The position numbers and the translations under genes were made by a program. Positions 6,036 to 46,739 of a DNA stretch of 64,000 nt are shown here, one piece after another. The stretch covers positions 682,001 through 746,000 of the forward strand of contig NZ_VRSV01000002.1 in the NCBI RefSeq assembly GCF_008017415.1, written 5' to 3'. The notes under the pieces were generated by a model that was not told where the DNA came from, ran no database searches, and saw only the letters and a list, made by a program, of their open reading frames with translations. This DNA comes from Microbacterium hatanonis (lineage in GTDB: Bacteria; Actinomycetota; Actinomycetes; Actinomycetales; Microbacteriaceae). Each line of letters starts with the position of its first letter. Within the stretch, counting starts at the first letter, position 1.

Positions 6036-6104
6036 GCGTAGGAGATGCCCTCGGCGCAGGCCGATCCGGCGCGGATCGTCCTACGCCGGCTCCTTCTCCT
6101 ACGC
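6036..6104. repeat. family B palindromic element, copy 1
   Basis: Outer arms GCGTAGGAGA (6036) and TCTCCTACGC (ending 6104) enclose inner arms of the type CGATCC...GGATCG. It lies between convergent glyS and the HhH-GPD gene, whose TAG stop is the TAG of the element's own arm. A second copy is at 55667-55731. It may be a bidirectional terminator and/or a mobile REP-like element. Confidence 0.65.
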
Positions 6105-6712: not shown

Positions 6713-6777
6713 AGACTTCACCCGGGGCACGAGACTGCAGGCGTCGCACGCAGTCTCGTGCCCGGGATGACGTCTCG
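6713..6777. repeat. family A palindromic element, copy 1
   Basis: Long imperfect palindrome: outer arms AGACTTCA / TGACGTCT and an inner stem GGCACGAGACTGC / GCAGTCTCGTGCC with a loop containing CGTCGCAC. It lies between the 3' end of the MerR gene and the start of the HhH-GPD gene. Other copies are at 10366, 15295 and 46632. Confidence 0.75.
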
Positions 6778-10365: not shown

Positions 10366-10434
10366 GCGAGACTTCACCGGGGGCACGAGACTGCACGCGT
10401 CGCACGCAGTCTCGTGCCCGGGATGACGTCTCGC
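10366..10434. repeat. family A palindromic element, copy 2
   Basis: Outer arms GCGAGACTTCA / TGACGTCTCGC, inner stem GGCACGAGACTGC / GCAGTCTCGTGCC. Nearly identical to the copy at 6713, here in the 214-base gap between the TetR gene and the ABC exporter. The remaining part of this gap (10435-10560) shows only a GC-rich stretch and the promoter region of the ABC genes. Confidence 0.75.
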
Positions 10435-40137: not shown

Positions 40138-40147
40138 CGCCTGGAAC

Positions 40148-40232
40148 CACGGGAGTCCGGTGAGCCGGGCTGAGAGGAAGCGATCCACGCTTCGACCGTC
40201 GAACCTGATCTGGGTCATGCCAGCGCAGGGAG
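40148..40232 (+). promoter_or_regulatory. TPP riboswitch (THI element)
   Basis: The leader of the ECF transporter operon contains the two conserved THI-box halves: CGGGAGTCC...GGGCTGAGAGG on the 5' side and CGAACCTGATCTGGGTCATGCC...GCGCAGGGA on the 3' side, separated by a variable hairpin (AAGCG...CGCTT). The ribosome site GGGAGGAGAG follows the last conserved bases at once, 4 bases before the ATG, so thiamine pyrophosphate binding probably blocks translation. No long terminator stem is seen, which argues against transcriptional control. Confidence 0.93.
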
Positions 40233-40240
40233 GAGAGAAA

Positions 40241-40876
40241 ATGCACACTTCCGCGTCCCCGTCCACCGGGACTCACCGCTATTCGTGGCGCGTCGTCGAC
40301 ATCGTCGTGGCCAGCGTCATCGGTGTCGCCGCCGGGCTGGTCTTCTGGCTGTGGGGCCAGGCCTGGCCGGTCCTCGACACCGCGCTGGCGTTCACCCCGG
40401 GCCTGTCGGGCCTCCTCGCCGGAGGCTGGCTCTTCGCCGGCGTGCTCGGCGGTCTGATCATCCGCAAGCCGGGTGCCGCGCTCTACACCGAGATCGTGGC
40501 CGCGGTCGTCTCCATGGCGATCGGCACCCAGTGGGGCTTCACGACCCTGATCTGGGGCGTGGTCCAGGGCCTCGGCGCCGAGCTCGCCTTCGCGATGTTC
40601 GCCTACGCCAACTGGCGCCTCGGCGTCGCTCTGCTCTCGGGCGCCCTCGCCGGTCTCGCTGTCGCACTGCTCGACACGACCTTCTCCTCGGTCGCCGCGC
40701 TCGCCTTCGAGGCACGGGCGGTCTACTTCGTCTCGGCGGTCGTCTCCGGCGTCGTGATCGCCGGTCTCGTCTCGTGGGTGCTCGCCCGAGCGCTCGCTGC
40801 CACCGGCGCGCTCGACCGCTTCGCCTCGGGTCGTGCGTACCGCTCCCGGGAGACCACCGCAGCCGACGCCGCGTGA
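40241..40876 (+). CDS. ykoE: ECF transporter substrate-binding subunit, YkoE (thiamine precursor)
   Basis: A 211-residue integral membrane S component with about six hydrophobic helices (VVDIVVASVIGVAAGLVFWLWG, LLAGGWLFAGVLGGLIIRKPG, TEIVAAVVSMAIG, WGVVQGLGAELAFAMFAY and others). The GLSGLLAGGWLFAGVLGGLI...RKPGAALYTE and QGLGAELAF phrases are typical of YkoE, which binds hydroxymethylpyrimidine or thiamine. Regulation by the TPP riboswitch upstream confirms the link to thiamine. The stop overlaps the GTG of ykoD. Confidence 0.92.
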   Translation: MHTSASPSTGTHRYSWRVVDIVVASVIGVAAGLVFWLWGQAWPVLDTALAFTPGLSGLLAGGWLFAGVLGGLIIRKPGAALYTEIVAAVVSMAIGTQWGFTTLIWGVVQGLGAELAFAMFAYANWRLGVALLSGALAGLAVALLDTTFSSVAALAFEARAVYFVSAVVSGVVIAGLVSWVLARALAATGALDRFASGRAYRSRETTAADAA

Positions 40877-42342
40877 GGTCGGCGCCTGCCGCCGTCCGCG
40901 CCCGCTCCTGGGGGTGGCGCCACGCCGGCCGTCGACGCTGGGCCGTGCGCGAACTCGATCTCGACATCGCCCCGGGGGAGCGGGTGCTGCTCCTCGGGGC
41001 GAGCGGCTCGGGCAAGAGCACGCTGCTGCGGGGCCTCGCCGGGGTGCTCGGCGACCTCGACGACGGGGAGAGCGTCGGCGAACTGACGCTCGACGGTGCT
41101 GCTCCCTCCGCCGCCCGCGGACGCGCGGGGCTGGTGCTCCAAGACCCCGACGCTCAGGTTGTGCTCGCCCGGGCGGGCGACGACGTCGCCTTCGCGTGCG
41201 AGAACCTCGGCGTTGCGCGCGAGGAGATCTGGTCGAGAGTGGATGCTGCGCTCGAGGCGGTCGGTCTCGGGATCGGCCGCGACCACCCGACGTCCCGGCT
41301 GTCCGGCGGGCAGAAGCAGCGCCTCGCGGTGGCGGGCATCCTCGCGATGCGACCCGGTCTCATGCTCTTCGACGAGCCGACGGCGAACATCGACCCCGAA
41401 GGTGCCGAGCTCGTGCGCGACGCCGTCATCGCGGCGGCACGGGTGACCGGTGCGACCCTCATCGTGGTCGAGCACCGGGTGGCGCTCTGGGCCGACGCGG
41501 TCGACCGGGTGATCGTGCTCGACGGCGGCGACGGCGGCGGGGTGGTCGCAGACGGGTCGCCCGGTGCCGTCTTCGCCGCGCACGGCCGATCGCTCACCGA
41601 GGCGGGCGTGTGGGTACCGGGCATCCCGGTCGAGATCGATCGCCGGCCGAGGTCCGCCGCATCCGAGACCCTGTTGAGCGGGTCGCACCTGGCGGTGGGC
41701 CGTCGGGCGTTCGCCGCGCGTTCGGCGACGGTCGTCGCATCCGGGATCTCGGTCGACCTCGCCGCCGGTCGTGCGCTCGCCGTCACCGGCCCCAACGGAG
41801 CGGGCAAGTCCACCCTGGCGCTGACCGTCGCGGGTCTTCTCGCGCCGGCAGCCGGCGACCTGACCGCGACGGCGTCCCTCGCCGGCGGGCGGGGCGCGAC
41901 CCCTTCCCGCTGGCGGTCGAGCGAGCTGCTCACACGGATCGGCATGGTGTTCCAGGAGCCCGAACATCAGCTGCTCGCCACCCGGGTGCGCGACGAGCTC
42001 GCCGTCGGCCTCCGCGCGCTCCGCCGCGACCCCGACGAGATCGCGCGCACGGTCGACGAGCTTCTGGAGCGGCTGCGGCTGACCCGGCTCGCCGACGTCA
42101 ACCCGTTCACGCTCTCCGGCGGTGAGAAGCGGCGCCTCACGGTGGCGGCGGCGATCGCCACCGCCCCGCGGGTGCTCGTGCTCGACGAGCCCACGTTCGG
42201 GCAGGACGCCCGCACCTGGCGCGAGATCGCGGGCCTGCTCGACGGGCTCCGTGCAGACGGGACCGCCGTGGCCTTCGTCACTCACGATCGTGAGCTCGTC
42301 GCGGCCCTCGCCGACGCCGAGCTCGAGGTGGGGCGCTCATGA
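40873..42342 (+). CDS. ykoD: ECF transporter double ATPase, YkoD
   Basis: A 489-residue protein made of two fused ABC ATPase domains, the EcfA/EcfA' arrangement of YkoD. Domain 1 has Walker A GASGSGKST, Q-loop VLQDPDAQVVLA, signature LSGGQKQRLAVAG and Walker B LMLFDEPTANID. Domain 2 has GPNGAGKST, MVFQEPEHQLLATRV, LSGGEKRRLTVAA and VLVLDEPTFGQD. Both contain a usable catalytic Glu and switch His (VEHRV; VTHDRE). It energises import through YkoE and YkoC. Overlaps both neighbours by 4 bases. Confidence 0.93.
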   Translation: MRSAPAAVRARSWGWRHAGRRRWAVRELDLDIAPGERVLLLGASGSGKSTLLRGLAGVLGDLDDGESVGELTLDGAAPSAARGRAGLVLQDPDAQVVLARAGDDVAFACENLGVAREEIWSRVDAALEAVGLGIGRDHPTSRLSGGQKQRLAVAGILAMRPGLMLFDEPTANIDPEGAELVRDAVIAAARVTGATLIVVEHRVALWADAVDRVIVLDGGDGGGVVADGSPGAVFAAHGRSLTEAGVWVPGIPVEIDRRPRSAASETLLSGSHLAVGRRAFAARSATVVASGISVDLAAGRALAVTGPNGAGKSTLALTVAGLLAPAAGDLTATASLAGGRGATPSRWRSSELLTRIGMVFQEPEHQLLATRVRDELAVGLRALRRDPDEIARTVDELLERLRLTRLADVNPFTLSGGEKRRLTVAAAIATAPRVLVLDEPTFGQDARTWREIAGLLDGLRADGTAVAFVTHDRELVAALADAELEVGRS

Positions 42343-43124
42343 GCCTCACCACGCTGGGCCCTGCCGACGGACCGCTCGCCCGCCTCAATCCCGTGGCCAA
42401 GCTCGCCGCGACACTCGTGCTGACCGGTGCGCTGCTCGCCTCGATCGACCCCGTCTCGGCGGGTGTCACACTCGTCGCGACCCTGCTGCTCCTGCCTTTC
42501 GCGCGCCTCCCGATCCGCGACCTGTGGCTGCGGCTCTGGCCGATCGCAGCGGGCGCCGTCGTCGCCTCGACCGCCACGGTGCTCTACGGCAGGCCCGCCG
42601 GCGACGTGTACGTCGAGTGGGGTGTGCTGCGCGTGAGCGACGGCTCGATCGCGCTGGCGCTCGCGATCCTGCTGCGCGTCCTCGCCATCGCCGTTCCCAG
42701 CGTCGTGCTGTTCGCGACGACCGACCCGACCGATCTCGCCGACGGCCTCGGCCAGATCCTGCGCCTGCCGGCGCGGTTCGTGCTCGGCGGGCTCGCGGGC
42801 CTGCGTCTCGTGGGGCTGCTGATCGAGGACTGGCGCGAGCTCGCGCTGGCCCGCCGCGCGCGGGGGGTCGCCGACGCCGGCCGCGTGCGCCGGTTCCTCG
42901 GGCAGACCTTCGCTCTCCTGGTGCTCGCGATCCGGCGCGGGTCGAAGCTCGCGACCGCGATGGAGTCTCGCGGCTTCGGCGCCCCCGGGCCCCGCACCTG
43001 GGCGCGCCCGTCGCGGCTGAGGGGGAGCGACGCCGCGCTCCTGGCGATCGCGGTCGTCATCGCCGCAGCATCCGTCGTCATCTCGGTGGGTTCCGGGGCC
43101 TGGCGCCCCATCTTCGGCCTCTGA
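42339..43124 (+). CDS. ykoC: ECF transporter T component, YkoC
   Basis: A 261-residue transmembrane coupling subunit (EcfT family) with N-terminal hydrophobic helices and the conserved cytoplasmic coupling motifs: ELALARRARGVADAG and KLATAMESRGFGAPGPRTW, each with the Ala-Arg-Gly type core that contacts the ATPases. ARLNPVAKLAATLVL at the N-terminus is also typical. Third gene of the riboswitch-controlled operon, which probably ends at the palindromic element just downstream. Confidence 0.92.
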   Translation: MSLTTLGPADGPLARLNPVAKLAATLVLTGALLASIDPVSAGVTLVATLLLLPFARLPIRDLWLRLWPIAAGAVVASTATVLYGRPAGDVYVEWGVLRVSDGSIALALAILLRVLAIAVPSVVLFATTDPTDLADGLGQILRLPARFVLGGLAGLRLVGLLIEDWRELALARRARGVADAGRVRRFLGQTFALLVLAIRRGSKLATAMESRGFGAPGPRTWARPSRLRGSDAALLAIAVVIAAASVVISVGSGAWRPIFGL

Positions 43125-43139
43125 CGCGCGGGGTGCCGT

Positions 43140-43204
43140 GACGTGCCGCGATCCGGGGCCTCCGGCTACCGGGTGACCCCCGATCGCGGCACCTCACCGG
43201 GTCA
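43140..43204. repeat. family C palindromic element, copy 1
   Basis: Arms ACGTGCCGCGATCCGGGG (about 43141) and CCCCGATCGCGGCACCTC (about 43177-43194) pair with few mismatches around a loop containing TCCGGCTACCGGGTGA. Lies between convergent ykoC and the APH-like gene and probably terminates both. A second copy in the same orientation is at 43996-44051. Confidence 0.7.
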
Positions 43205-43969
43205 GGTCGCGTTCCAGAGGTCGCGGTAGTAGTCGAGGCGGGCGCGATCGGGCTCGACGCCGTAGGCGGCGATGAGTGCGTCGGACCAGCCGGGGCCGTA
43301 GTTCCACTCCGTGCTCATGGCCGCCACCGCGATGTCGGCCCACCGGTCGGCGACGCCGAGCGCGCCGAGGTCCACGTGCCCCGACCATGAGCCGTCGTCG
43401 CCGACGAGGGTGTTGGGGGCGCACGCGTCGCCGTGGCAGACCACGAGGCGGTCGGTCGCCGGCGCGGTCCGCAGAGACGACGGCACCTCGATGCCCCGCG
43501 CCGCGGCGTTCGCGACGCGACCCTCCACTCCCCAGTCGAACGGGCACCCCTCGACGGGCAGGGCGTCGTGCAGCGCCCGAAGGCCCGCCCCGATCGACCG
43601 GACGGCGTCGCCCGGTCTCTCGACCCAGCGCGGATCGACCGCCGACCGCCCCGGCAGGGCCGCCGTCACGAGCCACTCGTACTCGTCATCGAAGCCGTGG
43701 GTGAGCACCCGGGGCACCGGTGTGAACAGGGCGGCCCACCGCATCCGTTCCGCCTCGGCCTCCATCGACGACTCGAGGGTGCGTGGTGCGTACTTGATGT
43801 AGCGGATGCTGCCCGCCTCCGTCGCGCGGAACGTCAGCCCGCCGATGCCGTTGCGCCACACCGGCTCGAGCGCGGCTCCGCCCGCGAGGCGGGCGACGCG
43901 CTCGGGCACGGCGGTCTCGGGGCCGGGCGTGAACGTCTGCACCCACGCCGCGTACTCCTCGTCGACCAT
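43202..43969 (-). CDS. aminoglycoside phosphotransferase (APH)-family kinase
   Basis: A 255-residue small-molecule kinase of the APH fold. The catalytic loop VVCHGDACAPNTLV (HGDxxxxN) and the metal-binding VDLGALGVADRWADIA (the DxD/G motif) are clear; the N-lobe reads SIRYIKYAPRT, with the Lys likely contacting ATP. It resembles the APH(3') group. The true substrate is unknown; many such genes in soil Actinobacteria are not resistance genes. It stands alone between two family C palindromes. Start ATG 43969 is 6 bases after CAGGAT. Confidence 0.85.
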   Translation of the reverse strand: MVDEEYAAWVQTFTPGPETAVPERVARLAGGAALEPVWRNGIGGLTFRATEAGSIRYIKYAPRTLESSMEAEAERMRWAALFTPVPRVLTHGFDDEYEWLVTAALPGRSAVDPRWVERPGDAVRSIGAGLRALHDALPVEGCPFDWGVEGRVANAAARGIEVPSSLRTAPATDRLVVCHGDACAPNTLVGDDGSWSGHVDLGALGVADRWADIAVAAMSTEWNYGPGWSDALIAAYGVEPDRARLDYYRDLWNAT

Positions 43970-43995
43970 TCCCCCATCCTGCCTCCGGGCCCGTC

Positions 43996-44051
43996 GAGGT
44001 GCCGCCATTCGGGGTTTCCGGCCGCGGGTGAGCCCCGATTGCGGCACCTCA
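43996..44051. repeat. family C palindromic element, copy 2
   Basis: Arms GAGGTGCCGCCATTCGGGG and CCCCGATTGCGGCACCTC with a loop TTTCCGGCCGCGGGTGAG. It shares arms and loop with copy 1, which lies on the other side of the APH-like gene, in the same orientation. Confidence 0.7.
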
Positions 44052-44060
44052 CGCCGTGGC

Positions 44061-44066
44061 TAGGGT
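44061..44066 (+). promoter_or_regulatory. -10 element, leaderless SDR gene
   Basis: TAGGGT, 6 bases before ATG 44073. Confidence 0.55.
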
Positions 44067-44072
44067 GGGCGC

Positions 44073-44834
44073 ATGAACATCGACGGTTCGGCCGCCCTCG
44101 TCACGGGCGGCGCCAGCGGGCTCGGACTCGCCACCGCGCGCAGGCTCGCCGCATCCGGAGCCCGCGTCACCCTCGTCGACCTGCCGGCCTCGCCCGGCGC
44201 CTCGGTCGCCGCCGAGTTCGGCGCGCAATTCGTGCCGGCCGACGTCACCGACCCCGAGCAGATCGGGGCGGCCGTCGCCCGCGCCACCGAGGCGGGGCCG
44301 CTCCGGGTGGTCGTCAACTGCGCGGGCATCGCGCCGCCGGCGAAGGTGCTCGACCGCGACGGTGCACCGACACCGCTCGATCTCTTCGAGCGCGTGCTGC
44401 GGGTGAACCTCGTCGGCACGTACAACGTCATCGCCCAGGCGTCGGCCGTGATGAGCCGGAACGACCCGGATGCTGCGGGCGACCGGGGCGTCATCGTCAA
44501 CACGGCGAGCGTCGCCGCCTTCGACGGCCAGATCGGCCAGCCCGCGTATTCGGCGAGCAAGGGCGGTGTCGCGGCGATGACGCTGCCGATCGCGCGTGAG
44601 CTCGCCCGCCACGCGATCCGCGTGGTCACGATCGCCCCCGGCATCATGGAGACGCCGATGCTGAAGGGGCTGCCGCAGGCGGCGCAGGACTCGCTCGGCG
44701 AGCAGGTGCCCTACCCCGCCCGGCTCGGCGCGCCCGACGAGTACGCCCGCCTCGTGCTGGCGATCGTCGACAACGGCTACCTCAACGGCGAGACGATCCG
44801 CCTCGACGGCGCGATCCGGATGGCGCCGAAGTAG
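44073..44834 (+). CDS. SDR, 3-hydroxyacyl-CoA dehydrogenase type 2-like
   Basis: A 253-residue classical SDR. TGGASGLGLATARRLAASG is the NAD loop; NCAGIAPP, a Ser in VNTASVAAFDGQIGQPAYSASKGG, and the YSASK catalytic pair are present. The inserted AKVLDRDGAPTPLDLFERVLRVNLVGTYNVIAQA and APGIMETPMLKGLPQAAQDSL are characteristic of the HSD10 / type 2 3-hydroxyacyl-CoA dehydrogenase group. It probably oxidises 3-hydroxyacyl-CoA with NAD in beta-oxidation, in keeping with the enoyl-CoA hydratase downstream. Confidence 0.88.
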   Translation: MNIDGSAALVTGGASGLGLATARRLAASGARVTLVDLPASPGASVAAEFGAQFVPADVTDPEQIGAAVARATEAGPLRVVVNCAGIAPPAKVLDRDGAPTPLDLFERVLRVNLVGTYNVIAQASAVMSRNDPDAAGDRGVIVNTASVAAFDGQIGQPAYSASKGGVAAMTLPIARELARHAIRVVTIAPGIMETPMLKGLPQAAQDSLGEQVPYPARLGAPDEYARLVLAIVDNGYLNGETIRLDGAIRMAPK

Positions 44835-46591: not shown

Positions 46592-46631
46592 CGCTGCACA
46601 GCCCCGACGCCGCCGGCGCCCCGCTGCCACC

Positions 46632-46700
46632 GCGAGACGTCAACCGGGCTGCGAGACTTCCGCCGAGCGGAGCAGTCTCGTCGCCGGGATGACGTCTCGC
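46632..46700. repeat. family A palindromic element, copy 4
   Basis: Outer arms GCGAGACGTCA / TGACGTCTCGC are a perfect 11-base match; the inner stem is GCGAGACT / AGTCTCGT-like with CCGAGCGG in the loop. It lies in the 160-base gap between the SDR gene and the DUF4407 gene. It shares its outer arms exactly with the other family A copies but has diverged inside. Confidence 0.65.
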
Positions 46701-46739
46701 GTTCTCTCGGCGCCGATCTGACGTTCAGGATCAAGCTCC

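Follow-up and report, generated by a model that had tools for sequence, protein, structure and literature searches.

Two related hairpins beside a kinase gene

A single APH-like kinase gene in this Microbacterium genome lies between two related hairpins of equal orientation. A gene framed by direct copies of a small repeat may be a mobile cassette, both hairpins may simply be terminators, or the hairpins may belong to a dispersed repeat family with members that happen to lie on either side of the gene. The window, meaning the whole 64,000 nt stretch of DNA that was analyzed, corresponds to positions 682001–746000 of contig C2 in a genome of 3.5 Mb (labeled G000). The features at the locus are as follows.

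42339–43124, + strand: CbiQ-type permease gene, convergent with the kinase across the left palindrome
43138–43197, + strand: family C palindrome, left copy (79 bits with covariance model R1)
43202–43957, − strand: APH-family (PF01636) kinase gene (Pfam APH match 6.8e-20)
43994–44052, + strand: family C palindrome, right copy (68.8 bits with covariance model R1)
44073–44834, + strand: SDR-family dehydrogenase gene, a frequent neighbor of the kinase in the genus

Both hairpins are about 60 bp long, related in sequence and equal in orientation. The left palindrome occupies a convergent gap, 13 bases 3' of the permease gene and 4 bases from the kinase stop, while the right palindrome is found in the divergent gap between the kinase (− strand) and the SDR gene (+ strand). 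The original prediction described two related hairpins in one orientation around a single kinase gene, and this description held, with coordinates right to within a few bases: the best local alignment of the two copies reaches 36.5, whereas 2000 mononucleotide shuffles gave at most 16.5, and their 28 right-hand bases match at 93%. The consensus offered for the family, called C, was roughly correct as well; a fuller half-motif, GTGAGGTGCCGCGATTCGGGG, was read off the genome search with the left copy. Compared with dinucleotide shuffles, the folding z values are −3.2 (+ strand) and −6.1 (− strand) for the left palindrome, and −3.0 and −2.7 for the right. The kinase matches 15 NCBIfam models, mostly APH(3'), every one of them under its own cut-off.

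The similarity between the two flanks of the kinase (38.0) ranks second among 215 genes of 500–1200 bp within 380 kb of this genome, where the 99th percentile is 31, and the bracketing is therefore not a matter of chance similarity. The top-ranking gene (C2:847860-848879, score 100) may represent a tandem duplication, because an adjoining block overlaps in the comparison with the relative G230. A known RNA element at the hairpins was considered and rejected, as Rfam at gathering scores gave no match there. The sole Rfam match in the window is a TPP riboswitch (RF00059, 58 bits) at 40139-40248, upstream of the transporter genes whose 3' end is at the left palindrome.

The kinase locus in related genomes

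In G230 and G225, both close relatives, each palindrome is found where it lies in G000. These two genomes carry a 6.25-kb operon inserted between the kinase start and the right palindrome (L228 4001-10250 in G230), the contents of which, judged by eye from reading frames, are a thiamine-diphosphate-type enzyme, ABC transporter parts and a LysR regulator. The stop codon of the LysR-like gene lies at the first bases of the right palindrome. The kinase itself is degraded in place in G225, and the kinase and the SDR gene are contiguous in G199, which is more distant, and in about ten further relatives.

A survey of kinase loci (113 entered and 111 passed, some genomes being present twice) found the SDR gene divergent from the kinase and within 1 kb of it at 68 of 111 loci, elsewhere in the compared stretch at 19 and absent from the compared stretch at 24. 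Similar repeats on both sides of the kinase (score of at least 30) were obtained at only four of the 111. Two of these, L027 and L148, are one locus, L150 comes from a second genome, and L043 is without a matching hairpin pair. The repeats at L027 and L150 belong to a different family, P, and not to family C; such independent bracketing by different families is expected if palindromes settle in intergenic gaps.

The suggestion that the kinase is a mobile cassette is thus unsupported: the repeats are same-site in G230 and G225, the SDR neighbor recurs and two-sided repeats are rare. Across relatives it is the inserted operon that varies and not the kinase segment, which comes near to the situation, with gene and repeats fixed at one site, that the original prediction had itself set against a cassette. 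For the sampled relatives the cassette was rejected, given same-site palindromes and a kept kinase–SDR adjacency, and the kinase is a stable neighbor gene outside the repeat system. In one genome, G013, the match to the kinase falls into two segments that lie 17 kb apart (C1:3097388 and 3114918, residues 189-251 and 15-184), which looks as if a large insert had entered the gene.

Family C is dispersed through the genome

Searching the genome with the left copy returned about a dozen clear places, and a covariance model was then built from 12 copies. Its 36 matches are both strands of 18 family C places in this genome, which means that 16 more places exist besides the kinase pair. The close relatives G230 and G225 contain 21 and 15 places, respectively. 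For 16 of the 18 places, G230 has a family C copy at the orthologous site; such occupancy was not shown for the remaining two, C1:995,956 and C1:761,895. When the copy at L319 in G000 is compared with L240 in G230, about 50 bases of the G230 palindrome are missing in G000, and L319 retains one arm-like end rather than a clean empty site.

At the orthologous G230 site the left palindrome bears a double change, G-C to T-A, by which the pairing of the stem is preserved. Double changes that keep pairing occur at 7 of 17 pairs among the 12 copies, and the covariation energy term of these copies is slightly unfavorable (+0.35). With respect to gene context, 14 copies were classed as 8 convergent, 4 tandem and 2 divergent, after which L261 (tandem) and L260 (divergent) were added, so that the 16 classifiable copies of the 18 places comprise 8 convergent, 5 tandem and 3 divergent ones; L259, with a called gene on one side only, and L262 are outside this set. 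Family C copies are less one-sided in their placement than the intergenic hairpins of the genome overall.

Placement of hairpins and the terminator question

Within 380 kb of this genome 64 intergenic hairpins were identified (gapless stem score of at least 11, with genes called by a simple codon-usage finder). Their distribution over convergent, tandem and divergent gaps is 28, 32 and 4, against 37, 116 and 57 among the 210 gaps of at least 30 bases in the same sequence. Because of this difference, hairpins of this kind can be said to sit behind genes.

The original prediction had offered as its alternative that both hairpins are terminators. For the left copy, in a convergent gap, this is plausible, as it is for the hairpins of this genome taken as a whole; the right copy lies in a divergent gap, and none of the 12 family C copies has a T-run on either strand, counted as at least 4 T within the 8 bases that follow the stem. 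A terminator scan of positions 42900-44300 gave no terminator-like site. Intrinsic terminators resemble these palindromes in being GC-rich hairpins at the 3' ends of genes, yet the palindromes differ from them in lacking the T-run, in forming shared sequence families and in having one copy in a divergent gap. The right arm of the right palindrome contains TTGCGG (44039), and TAGGGT is present at 44061, just upstream of the SDR start, which suggests that the right palindrome may overlap a putative promoter of the SDR gene. A scan with the standard promoter consensus found no promoter at the right palindrome.

Other palindrome families

De novo clustering of the hairpins in the 380 kb yielded seven families of at least two members (sizes 8, 4, 3, 2, 2, 2 and 2) in addition to singletons. 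Four of these seven multi-copy families, which were found without prior knowledge, match repeats that flank nuclease genes in the units described below. Family A and two other multi-copy families had no DUF559 partner among the matches found. Besides the kinase pair, the following palindromes of other types were located in the window, none with an assigned strand.

6036–6104: solo palindrome of the type that flanks the DUF559 genes L350 (this genome) and L344 (G225) on both sides
6713–6775: family A palindrome
10366–10434: family A palindrome
46631–46701: family A palindrome

Family A, with these three copies in the window, occupies 16 places in the genome and is about as frequent as family C. 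The copies at 6713-6775 and 10366-10434 are nearly identical, and the 3.6 kb between them is absent from G230, where apparently one shortened palindrome is left at the site. By eye, this segment encodes a MerR-type regulator, a carboxylesterase-like gene and a TetR-type regulator. This pair matches the picture of a cassette better than the kinase does.

Family P is abundant in the genome G006, where it forms close clusters. Three-copy clusters with copies about 75–90 bp apart, which are BIME-like, are found there at C12:47205-47416, C13:371728-371949 and C13:378055-378279. A long palindrome in a convergent gap at 1003-1069 of the window (TCGACACACCGGAATCGG...) has matches in the flanks of three G230 genes. 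The stretches examined contain solo copies of types C, P, E, T and window-6036, and none were found there for the L320/L321, L345 and L322 types. When the 64 hairpins were compared with gene flanks, 13 matched nuclease flanks and 36 matched flanks of 213 control genes; this comparison is unusable as statistics because most of the matched controls lie in the G230 stretch orthologous to the hairpins, and it served only to tell which families match nuclease units.

Nuclease genes lie between two copies of one palindrome

In G230 (L230 1600-2487, − strand) and in G225, two family C palindromes enclose a gene of about 295 codons. The genome under study contains only a deleted remnant of it (C1:1,781,960-1,782,359), again between two family C copies and consisting of two pieces, one covering residues 248-295 at 94% and the other a 96-bp piece at 95%. 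The family C nuclease has been lost here. The same kind of gene lies between two family T palindromes at C1:397.5 kb of G000, a site where a single palindrome, of family C, stands in G230 and G225. One flank of a T-type unit in G199 matches this site at 86%, which suggests loss of the unit from G230 and G225 and not its gain by G000.

Both the family C gene and the T-unit gene match DUF559 (PF04480), and both also match MTES_1575 (PF18741), the T-unit gene weakly. The N-terminal part of the family C nuclease matches AbiEi models (PADLOC, best 4e-12). Among 12 aligned nucleases, which are 20-95% identical to the first of the alignment, PF04480 is matched by 11 and PF18741 by 9 (E of at most 0.01), and AbiEi_4 by 2. 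Nine residues are invariant in the alignment (R45, H112, L166, E198, L205, D231, H248, D257 and G268), with the acidic and His residues E198, D231, H248 and D257 among them, a pattern consistent with an intact PD-(D/E)XK-type site. No convincing solved relative was found by sequence, the best E value being 0.21. Judged by domain and residues, the enclosed genes are predicted Vsr-like nucleases of the PD-(D/E)XK type. A DUF559 protein of Caulobacter is described as Vsr-like and PD-(D/E)XK in one report (PMC12907096).

Overall, at least five palindrome types (C, P, E, T and window-6036) have a cognate nuclease gene between two copies, forming a unit of about 1.1 kb. The cognate proteins are, as predicted from their domains, stand-alone and Vsr-like (DUF559/MTES_1575), some with an AbiEi-like N-terminus.

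Enclosure of nuclease genes compared with controls

An enclosure score was computed by comparing a 200-base stretch spanning and following the stop codon of a gene with the stretch 450-1500 bases upstream of the stop, with a threshold of at least 30. This score measures the likeness of repeats and not palindromy. In an earlier flank comparison, built on predicted starts, a score of at least 30 was reached by 12 of the 40 DUF559 genes that had been called, by 11 of 51 loci lacking a gene call and by 2 of 337 controls; this comparison was replaced by stop-codon anchoring because the starts of nuclease genes are often miscalled.

Two samples were scored. The first comprises 51 of the 53 DUF559 matches in eight Microbacterium genomes, two weak G018 matches having been left out, and the second 20 short-frame MTES_1575 genes of the order, hand-picked among the matches listed, of which 19 come from other genera and one (L413) from Microbacterium. 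The same repeat was found on both sides of 31 of the 51 DUF559 genes and 10 of the 20 picked genes. Of the controls, 3 of 215 from this genome were enclosed, the kinase being one, as were 5 of 295 from G230 and G006. Against the combined 8/510 controls, Fisher tests give 4e-30 for the DUF559 sample and 2e-11 for the MTES_1575 sample. When the 3' flank of one locus was compared with the upstream stretch of another, 12 of 1500 comparisons passed, orthologues included. The remaining 20 DUF559 genes and 10 picked genes are below the threshold.

The median span of a unit is 1081 bp, and in enclosed genes the matched stretch behind the gene begins −20 to +84 from the stop codon. In 27 of the 41 enclosed genes (22/31 and 5/10), the self-complementarity of both copies lies above the 99th percentile of shuffles. 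The other 14 pairs failed this strict palindrome test, which is harsh on matches that extend past the palindrome, on at least one side; L417, L411 and L322 are among the pairs that are non-palindromic on either side by it. At L365, L408, L416 and L417, all four of which belong to the 14 failing pairs, the match is long or tandem-like, and without these four loci the counts at a score of at least 30 become 30/51 and 7/20.

Repeat type and nuclease lineage

The repeat types are spread over several genomes. Family P repeats enclose nucleases in G000, G230, G225, G199, G018, G006 and G009, T-type units are found in G000, G006 and G199, and GGAGGAG-type units in G000, G225, G230, G006 and G008. A palindrome core score of at least 16 was reached by 32 of 70 pairs of units with nucleases 55-70% identical, versus 1 of 584 pairs below 35% identity. 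In Mantel tests of trimmed cores, a correlation as high was obtained in none of 1999 permutations for pairs below 70% identity and in 8 of 1999 for pairs below 60%. With untrimmed repeats the signal is weak (79/999 for pairs below 60% identity). The trimmed-core test used 40 of the 71 units, namely the 44 with a score of at least 28 minus L365, L408, L416 and L417, which were dropped for their long or tandem-like match. Repeat type thus tracks nuclease lineage.

Where loci are comparable, nuclease units are mostly found at fixed orthologous sites. For a few units, one flank still matches in species that are 80-84% identical there. No clean case of palindrome insertion with a target-site duplication was found, and no movement was seen.

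Proposed origin of the hairpins

We consider it probable that the two kinase hairpins are solo members of the dispersed, REP-like family C, located in gaps beside a kinase that is stably kept, and that palindromes of this kind form units with nucleases from which they would have spread. This reading draws together the observed families, their preference for 3' ends, the enclosure of nuclease genes, the match between lineage and repeat type, and the loss of the family C nuclease from this genome. The arrangement that the original prediction had in view, with one palindrome in two copies around a gene, does exist for another gene, that of the Vsr-like nuclease.

Under the mechanism that we propose, the nuclease would spread the palindromes. 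It would recognize its own palindrome in duplex, cruciform or single-strand hairpin form, and cut at or near it. Copying during repair would then carry solo palindromes into new gaps, where insertions may be tolerated mainly behind stop codons. A hairpin behind a gene may also help to end or protect transcripts. Decay of the nuclease, as in this genome, would leave the palindromes to persist as orphans. We see about an even chance that the wider form of the proposal is correct, in which these would be self-spreading palindromes of actinomycetes, an independent counterpart of REP/RAYT, with each stand-alone Vsr-like nuclease seeding solo copies of its own palindrome behind genes over the whole chromosome, many lineages having a palindrome "dialect" of their own, and the kinase hairpins being orphans of a pair whose nuclease decayed.

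Alternative explanations

The strongest of the alternatives, although still an unlikely one, is that the palindromes are transcription terminators only, acting in both directions without a T-run, made alike by gene conversion or duplication, and that nuclease genes are merely insulated on both sides. The bias toward 3' ends fits this explanation (28 of 64 hairpins in convergent gaps, which are 37 of 210 gaps, and 4 hairpins in the 57 divergent gaps), as do the convergent position of the left copy and the place of the right copy in G230 directly behind the LysR-like gene. The double change that keeps the stem of the left copy and the double changes at 7 of 17 pairs also point this way, the energy term being +0.35. 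However, none of the 12 copies has a T-run, the scan of the region gave no terminator-like site, the right copy lies in a divergent gap, and terminators give no account of why the same repeat stands on both sides of DUF559 genes or why its type follows nuclease lineage. Gene conversion among terminators could yield part of the pattern without mobility. Shared terminators kept alike in this way may account for the solo copies, and leave the link with the nuclease unexplained.

Less probable is that the palindromes are operators for the AbiEi-like N-terminus of the nuclease, in a self-regulation resembling toxin-antitoxin systems, with solo copies being chance or regulatory satellites. The AbiEi matches of the family C nuclease and of 2 of the 12 aligned nucleases are in its favor, but enclosed genes also have a copy directly behind the stop codon and solo copies are mostly at the 3' ends of unrelated genes. 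Slightly further down we would place the possibility that palindromes are hot spots of gene-content change, by recombination or breakage at cruciforms. Indels do end at palindromes at the kinase locus, at the family A pair of the window and at the L008 and L011 copies. Intergenic breakpoints within 10 bp of a hairpin were nevertheless only 4 of 27 in G000 and 6 of 30 in G230, against 12% and 10% of intergenic positions, and breakpoint hot spots were rejected since no clear excess at hairpins was evident in 16 indels between G000 and G230. These indels were listed by hand, leaving out the duplication near 847.8 kb and small gaps, and the hairpin scan used here misses imperfect hairpins, including the right family C copy.

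The least probable is that the kinase and its two palindromes are a mobile cassette moved by recombination between direct repeats. Such a cassette would account for direct copies flanking the kinase with the second-best flank similarity of 215 genes, for the repeats of another palindrome family around the kinase in two other genomes (L027, the same locus as L148, and L150), and for synteny with G230 stopping exactly at the right palindrome. That break, however, reflects the insertion of the 6.25-kb operon and not loss of the kinase. G230 carries the kinase with both copies at the corresponding position, the kinase and SDR gene remain contiguous in G199 and about ten other relatives, and the SDR gene adjoins 68 of 111 kinases.

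Comparison with known repeat systems

Reports on REP/RAYT systems describe a gene flanked by two cognate palindromes, co-divergence of the two and several families per genome (PMC2817692, PMC3733652, PMC8266576). Set beside these systems, with their REPtrons and BIMEs, the palindromes described here are alike in forming several extragenic families per genome, mostly behind genes, in having a gene between two cognate palindromes that co-diverges with them, here with a different protein, and in forming copy clusters, such as the three copies about 75 bp apart at C12:47205-47416 of G006. They differ in that the enclosed gene encodes a predicted Vsr-like PD-(D/E)XK-type nuclease and not an HUH tyrosine transposase, in that palindrome cores are mostly 55-90 bp rather than 20-40, and in that the families counted here occupy 16-18 places rather than hundreds.

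PF01797 (Y1/RAYT) was matched in none of 23 Microbacterium genomes, this one included, and in 1 of 38 genomes overall, that one from another family; REPs driven by a RAYT were therefore rejected. A GTAG tag is present in none of the 12 family C copies, and CGTC occurs in an end window of 4 of the 12. With the Y1 domain and the GTAG tag missing and the palindromes longer, the system may be said to work like REP/RAYT without being a member of it.

Integron attC cassettes share with these loci a palindromic site behind the gene. Here core motifs at both ends are lacking (0 of 12 family C copies) and the kinase is stable and not exchanged, and an integron cassette was rejected on these grounds. 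Elements of the IS200/IS605 type carry a gene between subterminal hairpins. The arrangement of a gene between hairpins is alike, yet the PF01797 transposase is missing here and the enclosed gene is unrelated. Vsr/DUF559 endonucleases share the PF04480 and PF18741 domain matches with the nucleases described here, the difference being that these genes are enclosed by palindromes and tied to scattered repeats. No link of DUF559 or Vsr-like proteins with palindromic repeats was found in the open-licence PMC literature.

Significance

At the locus itself, the comparison illustrates that direct copies of a hairpin around a gene need not mean a cassette. DUF559, a widespread domain, still carries the name of unknown function in Pfam, and MTES_1575 is matched in at least 146 of 149 genomes of the order, the top matches listed being mostly in frames of at least 1000 codons. 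For stand-alone DUF559 proteins, a palindrome that tracks the lineage of the nuclease offers a testable substrate. The many palindrome–nuclease pairs hint at a kind of self-spreading repeat that has not been described. If the proposal is true, REP-like repeats would be tied to a second, unrelated enzyme fold, and it would explain many of the species-specific intergenic hairpins of high-GC bacteria, which are easily mistaken for plain terminators.
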